Both the position numbers and the translations under genes were made by a program. Source: Octadecabacter sp. B2R22 (GTDB lineage Bacteria; Pseudomonadota; Alphaproteobacteria; Rhodobacterales; Rhodobacteraceae). Taken from it: a stretch of 64,000 nucleotides of DNA. Positions 37,110-50,366 of the stretch are shown piece by piece (within the stretch, counting starts at the first letter, position 1; each line of letters starts with the position of its first letter). Where the stretch lies: NCBI RefSeq assembly GCF_018861045.1, contig NZ_JAHKQJ010000010.1:558001-622000 (forward strand), in the 5' to 3' direction. The notes under the pieces are model-generated. The model ran no database searches and was not told where the DNA came from. It was given only the letters and a program-made list of their open reading frames with translations.

Positions 37110-38660
37110 ATGTCAGCTCCGTCCCGCACGCCAAACCGCCGTGGCCGCAACAAGCAGATCGCCACGCCAATCCTGCCGCCGATTGGCCCGGGCATGACGG
37201 GTGGCCATTACCAGCCACTAACCCCCGTGGAAATCGAACGCATTCACGAGCTGGTGCTGCAATTGCTGGCAGATCTCGGGTTGTCGCAAGTCACGCCCAG
37301 CCTGCAAGCCCGTGCGGTTGACGCGGGATGCGAGGTTGACGGCGATGGCCGCCTGCGGTTCCCACGCGCCTTGGTTGAAGACGTAATCGCGAAAACGCGG
37401 CGTAAATTCACCCTGCACGGCATCGACCCTGCTCATGACATCGAAATTGGTGGGCAGCGCGTTCACACCGGCACTGGTGGGGCGGCCCCCACTATTCTGG
37501 ACTTCCACAGCGGCAAATACCGCGAGAGTACGGTCGCTGATCTTTTCGATATCGCCCGCTTGGTGGACAAAATGGACAATATCCATTGGTATCACCGCTC
37601 GGTTGTGGCGCGGGATACGAAGACGATCCTCGATCTGGATATCAACACCACCTATGCCTGCCTGTCCGGCACAACGAAATCCATCGCCGTCAGCTATACT
37701 GACAGCGCCAGCGTCAAGGCGGTTATGCCGATGCTGGATGCGGTCGCGGGCGGCGAAGGAAAGTTCCGCGAGCGCCCGTTTTGTACCGCCGTTTGCTGCC
37801 ATGTCGTCCCGCCAATGCGGTTTGCCACTGAAAGCTGTGAAGCCCTAGAAGCGGCGGTGGAAGCCGGAATGCCGATCCTGCTGGTGGCCGCGGGCCAAGC
37901 TGGGGCCACTGCCCCAGCGGCGTTGGCTGGAGCTGTGGCGCAGGCCTGTGCCGAGGTGCTGGCGGGGCTTATCCTGTGTAACATCATAGACCCCAACTGC
38001 CGGGGCATCTTTGCCACCTGGCCTTTTGTCAGCGATCTGCGCACTGGGGCAATGTCGGGGGGATCAGGCGAACAGGCACTGCTTTCGGCAGCCTGCGCCC
38101 AGATGGCCGCGTTTTATGATCTGCCCAATTCCGTGCCCGCCGGCATGACAGACAGCAAACTGCCCGATATGCAGGCGGGGGGCGAAAAGGGATATACCGT
38201 GTCACTTGCGGCCCATGCGGGCGCGTCGATGATCCATGAAAGCGCGGGCATGCATGGCAGCCTGATGGGCACCAGCTTTGAAAGCTATGTGCTGGACAAT
38301 GATCTGTTGGGGGCCATCCTGCGCACGGTCAAAGGGGTCGATGTAAGCGAAGACTCGGTGAATTTCGATGTGATCCGCGATGTAGTGATGGGAGAAGGCC
38401 ATTATCTGGGCCACCCGCAAACATTTGCCCGCATGAAGACCGATTACCTTTATCCAAACATCGCCGACCGCCGCAGCGTCAGCGAATGGGAAGATGCAGG
38501 TGGGCGCGATGCCCGTGACGTGGCCCGTGATCAAGTGAGTCAAATCCTGACAGAGCACTACCCGAGCCATATTCCCGAAGCGGTCGACTTGCAGCTGCGC
38601 GATAATTTCAACATCATTTTGCCCAGAGCCCGGATGTTTGCCGGAAACGGCGACTGGTAA
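37110..38660 (+). CDS. MttB-family corrinoid methyltransferase, non-pyrrolysine
   Basis: The 516-residue product matches the trimethylamine methyltransferase superfamily (HTGTGGAAPTILDFHSGKYRES; GTTKSIAVSYTDSAS; CRGIFATWPFVSDLRTGAMSGGSGEQALL; GMHGSLMGTSFESYVLDND). No in-frame amber codon interrupts it, so it lacks pyrrolysine and belongs with MtgB-like demethylases of quaternary amines such as glycine betaine or a relative. Such enzymes need a corrinoid protein, which is not in the window. It is followed 23 bp later by a GcvT-type flavoprotein. Confidence 0.88.
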   Translation: MSAPSRTPNRRGRNKQIATPILPPIGPGMTGGHYQPLTPVEIERIHELVLQLLADLGLSQVTPSLQARAVDAGCEVDGDGRLRFPRALVEDVIAKTRRKFTLHGIDPAHDIEIGGQRVHTGTGGAAPTILDFHSGKYRESTVADLFDIARLVDKMDNIHWYHRSVVARDTKTILDLDINTTYACLSGTTKSIAVSYTDSASVKAVMPMLDAVAGGEGKFRERPFCTAVCCHVVPPMRFATESCEALEAAVEAGMPILLVAAGQAGATAPAALAGAVAQACAEVLAGLILCNIIDPNCRGIFATWPFVSDLRTGAMSGGSGEQALLSAACAQMAAFYDLPNSVPAGMTDSKLPDMQAGGEKGYTVSLAAHAGASMIHESAGMHGSLMGTSFESYVLDNDLLGAILRTVKGVDVSEDSVNFDVIRDVVMGEGHYLGHPQTFARMKTDYLYPNIADRRSVSEWEDAGGRDARDVARDQVSQILTEHYPSHIPEAVDLQLRDNFNIILPRARMFAGNGDW

Positions 38661-47452: not shown

Positions 47453-47959
47453 ATGCCCGCAGCAACAAACAAAGCCGAGCTCATCGATGTGACCGAAAAG
47501 GACTATGCCAAGCTGTGCGTCGTCATGGGCAAGGTTACGCCCGATCAGGCGATGCGAAAACGCGAGGATGACACCTCTATTAAGGACGTCATCGGCCATC
47601 GCGCCCATTGGATTGCGTTGTTTCTGAGGTGGTATCAGGAGGGGCAAGCGGGCGTCGACGTTCATATTCCGGCCAAAGGATATAAGTGGAACCAAATCAA
47701 AGCCTACAATGCGGCACTGCGTGACGTCCAAAGCGGCATCACTTGGACACAAGCTTGCGATCAACTTGGGGCAAACCACCTCAAACTTGTTTACTTCATA
47801 AATTCCCTTCCCAGTGGCGAACTTTATGGAGCCCCAATGAAGGGCGGAAACAATGCTTGGACAACAGGTCGCTGGGCCGAGGCCGCAGGGCCGTCACACT
47901 ATCGTTCCGCAGCCAAATGGATTCGCGCATGCTTACGCGCTGATGGCTTAACCAATTAG
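47453..47959 (+). CDS. ClbS/DfsB family protein
   Basis: The 168-residue protein has the four-helix DinB-like fold of ClbS/DfsB proteins (TNKAELIDVTEKDYAKL, SIKDVIGHRAHWIALFLRWYQEG, KWNQIKAYNAALRDV, YRSAAKWIRACLR). ClbS is a self-resistance protein that opens the cyclopropane of the genotoxin colibactin. No biosynthetic gene cluster is in the window, so here it might protect against related electrophiles or have another function. It diverges from a DMT transporter gene. Confidence 0.85.
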   Translation: MPAATNKAELIDVTEKDYAKLCVVMGKVTPDQAMRKREDDTSIKDVIGHRAHWIALFLRWYQEGQAGVDVHIPAKGYKWNQIKAYNAALRDVQSGITWTQACDQLGANHLKLVYFINSLPSGELYGAPMKGGNNAWTTGRWAEAAGPSHYRSAAKWIRACLRADGLTN

Positions 47960-48009
47960 GCCGGCATCTGCTCTTGCCAAGCCTGCACCTTTTCTCCTAG
48001 AACGCTCCC

Positions 48010-48054
48010 ATGAAAATGAATTTGACACAGATAGAAAACCGACGCCGACGCTGA
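48010..48054 (+). CDS. putative arginine leader peptide upstream of argD
   Basis: ATG 48010 opens a 14-codon frame, MKMNLTQIENRRRR, ending in TGA. Its last four codons, CGA CGC CGA CGC, all encode arginine. It lies 117 nt before argD, which is followed by argF. The pattern of tandem codons for the pathway end-product in a short peptide is that of attenuation leader peptides. No Shine-Dalgarno sequence is evident before either ATG, which weakens the case. The CGACGC repeat could be chance. Confidence 0.45.
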   Translation: MKMNLTQIENRRRR

Positions 48055-48121
48055 TCTATTGATCCGCTTCGCGACCTCTGTTGTCTAAATTCCTTCTATA
48101 TTCCTCACATCGTTGACTTTT

Positions 48122-48157
48122 GGCCCGCGCTCACGCACCTAAGGGCCTTCATTTTTA
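48122..48157 (+). terminator. candidate attenuator hairpin before argD
   Basis: GGCCC (48122-48126) pairs with GGGCC (48143-48147), followed by TTCATTTTT. It lies between the Arg-codon peptide and the argD ribosome-binding site (AAAAGGG). The stem is short. Alternatively, TTGACT at 48115-48120 may be the -35 element of an ordinary promoter. Confidence 0.4.
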
Positions 48158-48170
48158 AAAGGGTGATCCC

Positions 48171-49352
48171 ATGATCAATTCTGTCCTTGCGACCTATAAC
48201 CGCGCCCCTCTGACCTTTGTCAGTGGTGAAGGCTCTTGGCTGGTCGAGGCAGATGGCCGACGCTTCTTGGATTTTGGCGCGGGTATCGCTGTGAATTCGC
48301 TGGGCCATGCGAACCCTGAACTGGTCGCGGCTTTGACGGAACAGGCGGGTAAGCTTTGGCATACATCCAACTTGTATCACATCGAACCCCAGCAAAAGCT
48401 GGCGGATATGCTGGTTGAACATACGTTTGCGGATACGGTTTTCTTTACCAACTCTGGGACGGAAGCCTGCGAATTGGCCGTGAAAATGGCGCGGAAATTT
48501 CACTTTGACAAAGGCGCGCCAGAACGCACCGACATCATCACCTTTGACGGCTCGTTTCATGGCCGCTCGGCGGCGGGGATTGCGGCCGCTGGGTCCGAAA
48601 AGATGACCAAAGGGTTTGGACCCCTATTGCCGGGTTTCATTCACCTGCCGTTCGGCGATCACGACGCCCTGACTGAGGCTGCAAAATCGCCCACTGTTGG
48701 TGCGATTTTGGTTGAACCGATCTTGGGCGAGGGTGGCATCATCCCGTTGCCGGATGCTTGCCTCAAGGGGTTGCGCGATCTGTGCGATGAACACGGGATC
48801 CTGATGATCTTGGACGAGGTCCAGTGTGGCGTTGGTCGCACTGGTAAACTCTTCGCCCATGAATGGGCAGGAGTGACGCCAGATATCATGATGGTTGCCA
48901 AGGGTATTGGCGGCGGCTTTCCTCTTGGTGCGGTTCTTGCGACTGAGGACGCAAGCTCAGGCATGACTGCTGGCACGCATGGGTCCACCTATGGTGGTAA
49001 CCCGTTGGCCTGTGCCGTTGGATGTAAAGTGGTGGAGATCGTGTCCGACCCCGCCTTCCTTGCTGAGGTAAACCGCAAGGCCGGTTTGCTGCGCCAAAAA
49101 CTTGAAGGGCTGGTTGCAGGTCATCCGACAGTGTTTGAACAGGTGCGTGGCGCGGGCCTTATGCTTGGGATTAAGTGCAATGCGACTAACATGGACGTGG
49201 TTACCGCTGCTTATGGCCAAGAATTGCTTACTGTGCCTGCCGCAGACAATGCGATCCGCCTTTTGCCCCCGCTCAACCTAACAGACGCTGAAATCGACAC
49301 CGCCATCGAGCGGCTCGAAAAGGCCGCCACAGAGGTTGCATCGATACTCTGA
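48171..49352 (+). CDS. argD: acetylornithine aminotransferase
   Basis: ArgD transfers the amino group of glutamate to N-acetylglutamate semialdehyde in arginine synthesis, using PLP. The 393-residue protein has FFTNSGTEACELAVKMAR, TFDGSFHGRSAA, LMILDEVQCGVGRTGKLFA and the PLP-lysine context MMVAKGIGGGFPLGA. The neighbour argF confirms arginine synthesis over other ornithine transaminases. AAAAGGG precedes the ATG. It follows the Arg-codon leader. Confidence 0.93.
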   Translation: MINSVLATYNRAPLTFVSGEGSWLVEADGRRFLDFGAGIAVNSLGHANPELVAALTEQAGKLWHTSNLYHIEPQQKLADMLVEHTFADTVFFTNSGTEACELAVKMARKFHFDKGAPERTDIITFDGSFHGRSAAGIAAAGSEKMTKGFGPLLPGFIHLPFGDHDALTEAAKSPTVGAILVEPILGEGGIIPLPDACLKGLRDLCDEHGILMILDEVQCGVGRTGKLFAHEWAGVTPDIMMVAKGIGGGFPLGAVLATEDASSGMTAGTHGSTYGGNPLACAVGCKVVEIVSDPAFLAEVNRKAGLLRQKLEGLVAGHPTVFEQVRGAGLMLGIKCNATNMDVVTAAYGQELLTVPAADNAIRLLPPLNLTDAEIDTAIERLEKAATEVASIL

Positions 49353-49460: not shown

Positions 49461-50366
49461 ATGACCCACTTTCTCGATATTCACAAAACAGACGCCGACG
49501 ACTTGCGCGGCATCATCGACAACGCCGCCGCGATGAAATCCGCCCGGGAAGGCCTGCCCAAAGGCACGCCAGACGCTGACCAGCCGCTCGCGGGCCATAT
49601 GGTTGCGCTGATCTTTGAAAAGCCGTCCACGCGGACGCGTATTTCTTTTGACGTCGGTGTGCGCCAAATGGGTGGCGAAACCATGGTTCTGTCCGGTTCT
49701 GACATGCAGTTGGGCCACGGTGAGACCATTGCCGACACGGCACGTGTCTTGTCGCGCTACGTTGACCTCATCATGATCCGCACATTCGAAGAGCAAACCC
49801 TGCTGGAAATGGCGGAATATGCGTCTGTGCCTGTGATTAATGGTCTGACAGACCGCACGCACCCCTGCCAGATCATGGCTGACATCATGACGTTCGAAGA
49901 ACACAACGGACCGATCAAAGGTAAGAAAGTCGTCTGGTCTGGTGATGGCAACAACGTCTTCGCCAGCTTTGCCCACGCGGCCAAACAGTTCGATTTTGAT
50001 CTCGTGTTCACGGGCCCTGAAACGCTGCAGCCGGAAGCCGCGCTGGACGGTCTCTACACAACCGTGCGTGACCCGAACGAAGCGGTGCATGGTGCCGACC
50101 TTGTGGTCACAGACACTTGGGTTTCCATGCATGATCCGCAATCAGCCCGCGAACGCCGCCACAACCAGCTGCGCGGCTATCAGGTGAATGCAGACTTGAT
50201 GAGCCATGCCAAATCGGATGCACTGTTCATGCATTGCTTGCCTGCCCACCGCGACGACGAAGCTACGTCCGAAGTGATGGATGGCCCCAACTCTGTGATC
50301 TGGGACGAGGCTGAGAACCGTCTGCACGCGCAAAAGGCAGTCATGCGTTTCTGTCTTAATAAATAG
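49461..50366 (+). CDS. argF: ornithine carbamoyltransferase
   Basis: ArgF joins carbamoyl phosphate and ornithine to citrulline in arginine synthesis. ATG 49461 gives 301 residues; a longer frame from 49374 would include the repeat element and is rejected. The carbamoyl-phosphate site [13 protein letters not shown] and the ornithine site [12 protein letters not shown] are intact, and the [12 protein letters not shown] loop is present. It is the second gene of an argD-argF unit split by a structured repeat. CarB at 7-10.7 kb supplies the co-substrate. Confidence 0.95.

Follow-up and report, generated by a model that had tools for sequence, protein, structure and literature searches.

A probable arginine leader-peptide attenuator upstream of argD-argF in Octadecabacter and other Rhodobacterales

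The argD and argF genes of Octadecabacter sp. B2R22 are probably preceded by a ribosome-mediated attenuator, in which translation of an arginine-rich leader peptide would sense arginyl-tRNA. The window studied is a whole stretch of 64,000 nucleotides; coordinates are those of this window, and all the features described lie on its forward strand. The preliminary description had suggested an attenuation layout, and this reading is supported, by inference, by a conserved arginine-rich upstream ORF (uORF), two covarying RNA helices (P1 and H2), a T-tract and the prediction of a leaderless start. Attenuation is held only as the likely mode of control, its antitermination step being putative.

The genes concerned are argD (48171..49352), of the acetylornithine transaminase family (TIGR00707 over its cut-off), and argF (49461..50366), for ornithine carbamoyltransferase (TIGR00658 over its cut-off), whose start ATG was chosen within the listed ORF. 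The Shine-Dalgarno-like AGGG of argD occupies 48160..48163, and a gene for a DUF1706 protein (47453..47959; PF08020) lies upstream of the leader. The C-terminal domain of ArgR (PF02863) gave no match in the genome itself, which is 99.28% complete, while a control search matched 8 of 14 named genomes; the operon thus does not appear to be one repressed by ArgR. To our knowledge, the control of arginine synthesis in bacteria without ArgR is largely an open question.

The leader ORF, its promoter and its conservation

The uORF lies at 48010..48054 (ATG at 48010, TGA at 48052-48054) and encodes MKMNLTQIENRRRR. It ends with the four tandem arginine codons CGA CGC CGA CGC (48040..48051), which are the proposed sensor. 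This 14-codon frame, with its terminal arginine run and stop, was found just as described previously, and its position 5′ of argD stands; the gap given as 117 nt is in fact 116 nt from the stop to the argD ATG at 48171. Two features taken as criteria of an attenuator were thus observed here, namely tandem codons for the pathway end product in a short ORF and, as detailed below, conservation 5′ of a gene from the same pathway.

Conservation was analyzed in 81 regions upstream of argD, made up of the window and 80 others, the best among 588 argD relatives in genome contigs; by record title, these 80 belong to Rhodobacterales genera, or to Rhodobacteraceae, Rhodobacterales or Alphaproteobacteria without a genus. 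An arginine-rich uORF could be assigned in 80 of the 81 loci, 77 times by script and three by hand (L039, L047 and L048). The arginine cluster is interrupted or short in some of them (e.g., L017, L022-L024, L039, L045, L047, L048, L053, L060, L070 and L079). Only L081 has no uORF; this locus keeps TTGAC (see below) and H2, and by eye it sits close behind the end of an ABC-permease-like gene. A mechanical screen, requiring an ATG start, 8-25 codons and RRR within the last eight, was positive in 68/81 loci on the forward strand and 1/81 on the reverse one, and 20 rounds of dinucleotide shuffling averaged 0.25/81 (maximum 2). The preliminary description had named orthologous regions devoid of the arginine run or of the hairpin as evidence that would count against it; with the upstream regions aligned, the arginine-rich uORF is kept and the stems covary, so the orthologues do not refute the proposal.

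Concerning the wider distribution of the leader, the pattern CGACGCCGACGC-N44-74-TTGAC occurred in 118/292 genomes of the order (54/112 genera), some of the matches being inside genes, versus 51 matches in 46 genomes (hand count) for the reversed pattern. Twenty leader-like matches all displayed the uORF, TTGAC and an argD-like start, in a set picked by eye and therefore biased towards success. Outside the family of the window, 29 loci were taken from the best argD matches in 115 genomes of the class, and 27 of them were readable by script: any arginine-rich short ORF was present in just three (L241, L244 and L251), and an RRRR end only in L241, so that the leader looks specific to the family of the window as far as sampled. 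Within the genome itself, CGN-CGN-CGN-CGN-TRR is not enriched (42 matches versus 47 for the reversed pattern), and among 30 matches inspected an ATG-started short ORF was found only at the leader (L105) and at L091. The argJ gene of this genome lies behind another ORF, with no short ORF containing three consecutive arginines in the stretch examined; argG has one, about 980 nt upstream, which is too distant for a leader of the argD kind.

The choice of codons is as marked as the conservation of the run. The 362 arginine codons of the leaders are CGC (173), CGA (171), CGT (15) and CGG (3), with no AGA or AGG, so that CGA or CGC accounts for 344 of them; the share of CGA, 171/362, compares with 100/1211 in 80 argD genes. 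Exactly CGA CGC CGA CGC is found in 48 of the 68 leader runs of three or more arginines, while the peptide outside the run varies widely among leaders. A single tRNA-Arg (ICG) decodes CGU, CGC and CGA, and hence the signal would be the charging of that tRNA. Separately, CATATC, in frame as His-Ile, occurs 9 nt 5′ of the arginine codons in the uORFs of L016, L022, L043, L059 and L065, and was also seen by eye in a number of further leaders, where it may act as an element of the peptide or of the RNA.

Upstream of the uORF, a -35-like TTGCCA (47974..47979) and a -10-like TAGAAC (47998..48003) form a putative promoter with a transcription start predicted at about 48010. When 77 loci were aligned without gaps on the uORF ATG (counts that predate the correction by hand of the script-chosen starts of L017, L018, L029 and L084), a T-rich, -35-like peak appeared at the same offset as in the window, with T at -35 in 69 loci, together with a -10-like peak, with T or A at -12 in 75 and A at -11 in 49; position -1 was C in 63/77. 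Over 80 loci, the -10 element matched TATAAT at a mean of 3.19/6 positions versus 2.07 after shuffling. The constant distance between promoter and ATG, together with the absence of a Shine-Dalgarno sequence 5′ of the uORF, which was noted before and was the same on re-inspection, leads to the prediction that the uORF is leaderless; a leaderless start would in turn account for that absence. Both leaderless mRNAs (PMC4117421) and a leaderless trpL (PMC10117765) have been described in alphaproteobacteria.

RNA structure between the leader ORF and argD

The hairpin H2 (48122..48147) is composed of the outer stem GGCCC (48122-48126)/GGGCC (48143-48147) and an inner GCG/CGC stem, and is followed by the T-rich tail TTCATTTTTA (48148..48157), the outer stem and the tail being as previously reported. 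Its fold, at -11.4 kcal/mol, is not unusual by itself (z -1.36, with 14/200 shuffles as good), and it was missing from a simple terminator scan because its stem is bulged and its loop is too long for the scan rule. The evidence for it comes from the relatives. Tested against permutation of partners, H2 covaried with z 2.9, 2.1 and 2.0 (59, 23 and 12 loci), and by duplex energy it gave z -4.6, -2.4 and -3.1 (59, 23 and 9 loci). A rule was set that asks for a hairpin of -6 kcal/mol or lower, at any position from TTGAC to argD, with no fewer than 5 T in 9 behind it. The window and 45 other loci passed, 46/101 in all, versus 7-11/101 after shuffling, and 55/101 failed the rule. By eye, the hairpin is kept while its sequence differs by lineage, as in TCCTGA/TCAGGA (L193), CATCC/GGATG (L197) and CCAATCC/GGATTGG (L198). 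So, it can be said that the hairpin is kept in the orthologues, and its sequence signature points to an intrinsic terminator between the uORF and argD.

The second helix, P1, would pair a 5′ strand within the uORF (48018..48031) with a 3′ strand past its stop (48077..48092). It was first spotted by eye, before a scan of 604 segment pairs put at the top that between the uORF start and the post-stop segment; the second-ranked pair of that scan was an artefact, as the windows compared overlap. Direct tests against permutation of partners gave z 6.9, 3.6 and 2.6 in sets of 59, 23 and 12 loci, each less closely related than the one before, values which are not independent of the scan since the tests were picked after it on the same sequences. 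Duplex energies gave z -3.8, -3.1 and -3.1 (59, 23 and 9 loci), the negative sign meaning stronger pairing. Examples of the paired strands are GATCACCG/CGGTGATC (L017), GATCAGTT/GACTGATC (L024), GATCAAAA/TTTTGATC (L055) and ATGAACAC/GTGTTCAT (L059). An alignment of 25 sequences of the ATGATC type had P1 paired in 91.5% of cells; of its eight pairs, four are invariant; in two a single partner varies, and in the last two both partners do. In an initial test of P1, confined to 14 nt at the 5′ end of the uORF, the window gave a score of 7.5, under the shuffled mean of about 11; its P1 sits further in.

Other pairings of the leader are as follows. A hairpin named H1 lies between P1 and TTGAC; it gave z 5.0 for 59 loci and 1.1 and 1.2 for 23 and 12, and is supported only within lineages; the joint covariation score of P1 and H1 in the ATGATC-type alignment was 0.115 versus 0.065 shuffled. 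The leader as a whole (48010-48157) folds with z -2.65, only 2/200 shuffles being as good. The ribosome-free fold of the window makes the entire uORF one hairpin enclosing the arginine codons, with an inner hairpin (48043..48073, pairing 48043-48056 with 48061-48073) that is predicted for this window only. A classical 1:2 pairing of the arginine codons with the downstream region was tried and discarded (mean 11.66 versus 11.93 shuffled; z -0.9, 59 loci). The 5′ end of the uORF (48011-48020) can also pair with the T-rich tail (48148-48157), by 10 pairs in the predicted fold, and an equivalent was seen by eye in the near relative L182.

Rfam 15 gave no match at the gathering score in the leader region, and none up to an E-value of 5 within 47900-48300. 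Elsewhere in the window, PYLIS_3, the pyrrolysine insertion sequence of mttB, matched 38145-38247 (+) with a score of 38.1 versus a gathering score of 38, inside a 516-aa ORF (37110-38660) that is open in the standard code. Perhaps, and this is a guess, the match reflects coding similarity to an MttB-type methyltransferase without pyrrolysine.

Proposed mechanism and alternative readings

In the mechanism that we favour, transcription would start at the uORF AUG, or within 1-2 bases of it, as inferred from the promoter placement, and a ribosome would load on the 5′ end. With ample arginyl-tRNA, this ribosome would clear CGA-CGC-CGA-CGC and leave at the stop, after which the 5′ part of the uORF would fold onto the post-stop segment as P1, a step supported by the covariation. 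P1 would also shut the start against further ribosomes, and the RNA polymerase, with P1 formed, would meet H2 and its T-rich tail and often stop. When arginine is scarce, the ribosome would halt on the arginine codons, P1 would be blocked and the post-stop segment would be free to disturb the nascent H2, giving readthrough into argD and argF. The disturbing pairing is the least certain of these steps, and a contrary consideration is that a ribosome at the uORF stop may sterically hinder P1.

Concerning the disturbing pairing, the earlier remark that no clear antiterminator is seen stands: none common to the loci was found, and the window shows only a weak, transient prediction. The post-stop segment with either arm of H2 displayed no covariation (z -1.5 to 1.0 in four variants and three sets), and its duplex energies with the H2 arms gave z -0.3 to +2.1; a supported pairing would have given distinctly negative values. 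Such an antiterminator had looked good by eye in L010, L041, L060, L080 and L083, and it failed the permutation of partners. When a ribosome was masked on the arginine codons, compared to one at the stop, upstream pairing of the H2 5′ arm rose by more than 0.2 in 16/80 loci and fell in 4/80; in 59 non-redundant loci it went up in 11 and down in 2, a weak tendency. The corresponding values in the window were 0.61 on the arginine codons and 0.06 at the stop, the stalled-state pairs being CGCG 48070-48073 with 48126-48129, CC 48075-48076 with 48122-48123 and GUC 48083-48085 with the GAC of TTGAC. This pairing is weaker with a stall at the second to fourth arginine codon and gives way to H2 as soon as the 3′ arm has been transcribed, so that H2 wins in both ribosome states. 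When the whole leader was folded, the probability of H2 on stalling was lower in 13 and higher in 4 of 80 loci and the same (0.89 vs 0.89) in the window. Two further signals are nominal and were not built on: the H1 3′ arm with the H2 3′ arm (z 2.0, p 0.03 in 59 loci; z 0.3 and -0.9 in 23 and 12) and the uORF with TTGAC-20..+8 by duplex energy (p 0.046, 0.024 and 0.027 in 59, 23 and 9 loci). The antitermination step possibly differs between lineages.

Arginine could also be sensed by the uORF with an output that does not pass through H2: Rho could act on the linker, or the change could be in the translation of argD or in the decay of the mRNA, the speF leader of Salmonella being a precedent. 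We consider this unlikely. The 20 nt 5′ of TTGAC (48093..48112) form a G-poor linker (C 0.37, A 0.30, T 0.23 and G 0.10 over 81 loci), which would suit such a reading, as would the 55 loci failing the hairpin rule and the example of the orf34 leader of speF, which carries arginine codons and uses Rho and RNase G (PMC6386406); the covariation of H2, and a hairpin plus T-tract far more frequent than in shuffled sequences, argue to the contrary. As for argD translation, pairing of the uORF start with positions -20 to -7 relative to argD reached z 3.4 in the 604-pair scan, a nominal value on which nothing was built, whereas no covariation was found between the uORF start and the last 16 nt before argD (z 0.2, 0.2 and 0.1 in 59, 23 and 12 loci) or between these 16 nt and the H2 3′ arm (z -1.1, -1.5 and -1.9). 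Possible, albeit rather improbable, is a widespread switch standing in for ArgR without a classical antiterminator, in which the 5′ part of the leaderless uORF would be shut by the RNA behind its own stop, about one ribosome would read arginine per transcript, and the invariant UUGAC ahead of the terminator would be a further RNA element, either bound by a protein or acting as the seed of a leader RNA that works in trans. Pairing of the TTGAC region as a seed with argG mRNA was tried in the 15 loci readable of 30 taken and dropped, as GTCAA was present in 4/15 and TCAACG in 3/15, with no conservation.

The pentamer TTGAC (48113..48117) is invariant, in 81/81 loci within the span searched, even in that without a uORF, and no invariant pairing partner for it was seen in the leader. 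The TTGACT previously proposed as a -35 candidate is indeed present at 48113-48118, and the promoter reading of it fell, since no -10 partner was found. As far as the sequence can tell, the second refuting result named earlier, a transcription start downstream of 48054, is therefore not indicated either. It could be imagined that argD has a promoter of its own with TTGACT as the -35 and that the uORF is a separate upstream unit, perhaps giving a trans-acting sRNA or peptide like rnTrpL/peTrpL, with no attenuation at all. The invariance of TTGAC and a GCAC-like motif often present about 17 nt 3′ of it fit this idea, which is nevertheless very unlikely: the best TATAAT match downstream is 2.09/6 versus 1.95 shuffled, the 30 nt past TTGAC contain a hairpin of lineage-specific sequence (as in L193, L197 and L198), and the genome shows no enrichment of TTGAC-N16-18-GCACY (40 matches versus 71 for the reversed pattern). 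TTGAC was therefore rejected as a promoter of the usual kind; it may be a non-canonical one. A sigma-54 promoter in this region was considered by eye and dropped: the spacing from GG to GC varies among the loci and is not found in the window. Finally, the wide variation of the peptide beyond the arginine run would be expected of a decayed or non-regulatory remnant, or of a chance ORF, an explanation made extremely improbable by the conservation, codon choice, promoter placement and covariation described above.

Comparison with known systems

Classical trp/his attenuators combine tandem end-product codons, a terminator-like hairpin, a biosynthetic operon and a defined antiterminator. The argD leader resembles them in its tandem codons and terminator-like hairpin and differs in that no antiterminator common to the loci was found. 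Attenuation by the argD leader, the preferred reading, would be a new arginine case of leader-peptide control, widespread in its family; this novelty is provisional, as the literature covered was mostly open-access. In that literature, no report was found of an arginine leader 5′ of arginine biosynthesis genes in Rhodobacterales; word searches of main texts found no argD in PMC8632094 and neither arginine nor argC in PMC2965389. If the reading is right, a conserved arginine-codon attenuator would answer the question of how argD-argF is controlled in the sampled Rhodobacterales and would bring arginine biosynthesis into the group of pathways governed by leader peptides. With its predicted leaderless start and its P1 helix, the model is simple and open to testing.

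The uORFC-8-2 motif, found 5′ of cysS in Rhodobacterales, has two prominent stems, the first of which contains the codons, and a U run that fits a terminator (PMC8632094). The argD leader is found in the same order and shares with it a short uORF in which codons for the end product stand in tandem, as well as the layout of two stems, the first holding these codons, with an end resembling a terminator. It does not belong to that motif, having arginine instead of cysteine codons and biosynthetic genes, argD first, instead of a tRNA synthetase gene; its predicted leaderless start and invariant TTGAC are further differences. In the part of that source consulted, no antiterminator is named for uORFC-8-2 either, and a rare third stem is without covariation (PMC8632094).

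With two known arginine-sensing leaders, the likeness lies in the arginine codons of the uORF. The orf34 of Salmonella speF senses arginine by ribosome pausing at consecutive arginine codons (PMC6386406). These are two rare codons (AGG and CGG), ahead of a polyamine gene in a gammaproteobacterium, and their effect depends on Rho and RNase G and on the ribosome-binding site being masked (PMC6386406); the HIRRTxHIMM core of orf34 (DUF2618) is, by eye, absent from the argD leader peptides, and the gene downstream is argD, not that for ornithine decarboxylase. The rbfL leader peptide of Staphylococcus aureus also senses arginine through the arginine codons of its uORF, which unlike those of the argD leader are AGA/AGG, and it acts by blocking the start of translation of a biofilm regulator gene (PMC13009471). 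The trpL/rnTrpL leader of Sinorhizobium meliloti is, like the argD leader, alphaproteobacterial, leaderless (by prediction in our case) and placed before a biosynthetic gene, with a leader peptide of 14 residues; it differs in responding to tryptophan and in that both its attenuated RNA and its peptide have described functions in trans (PMC10117765).
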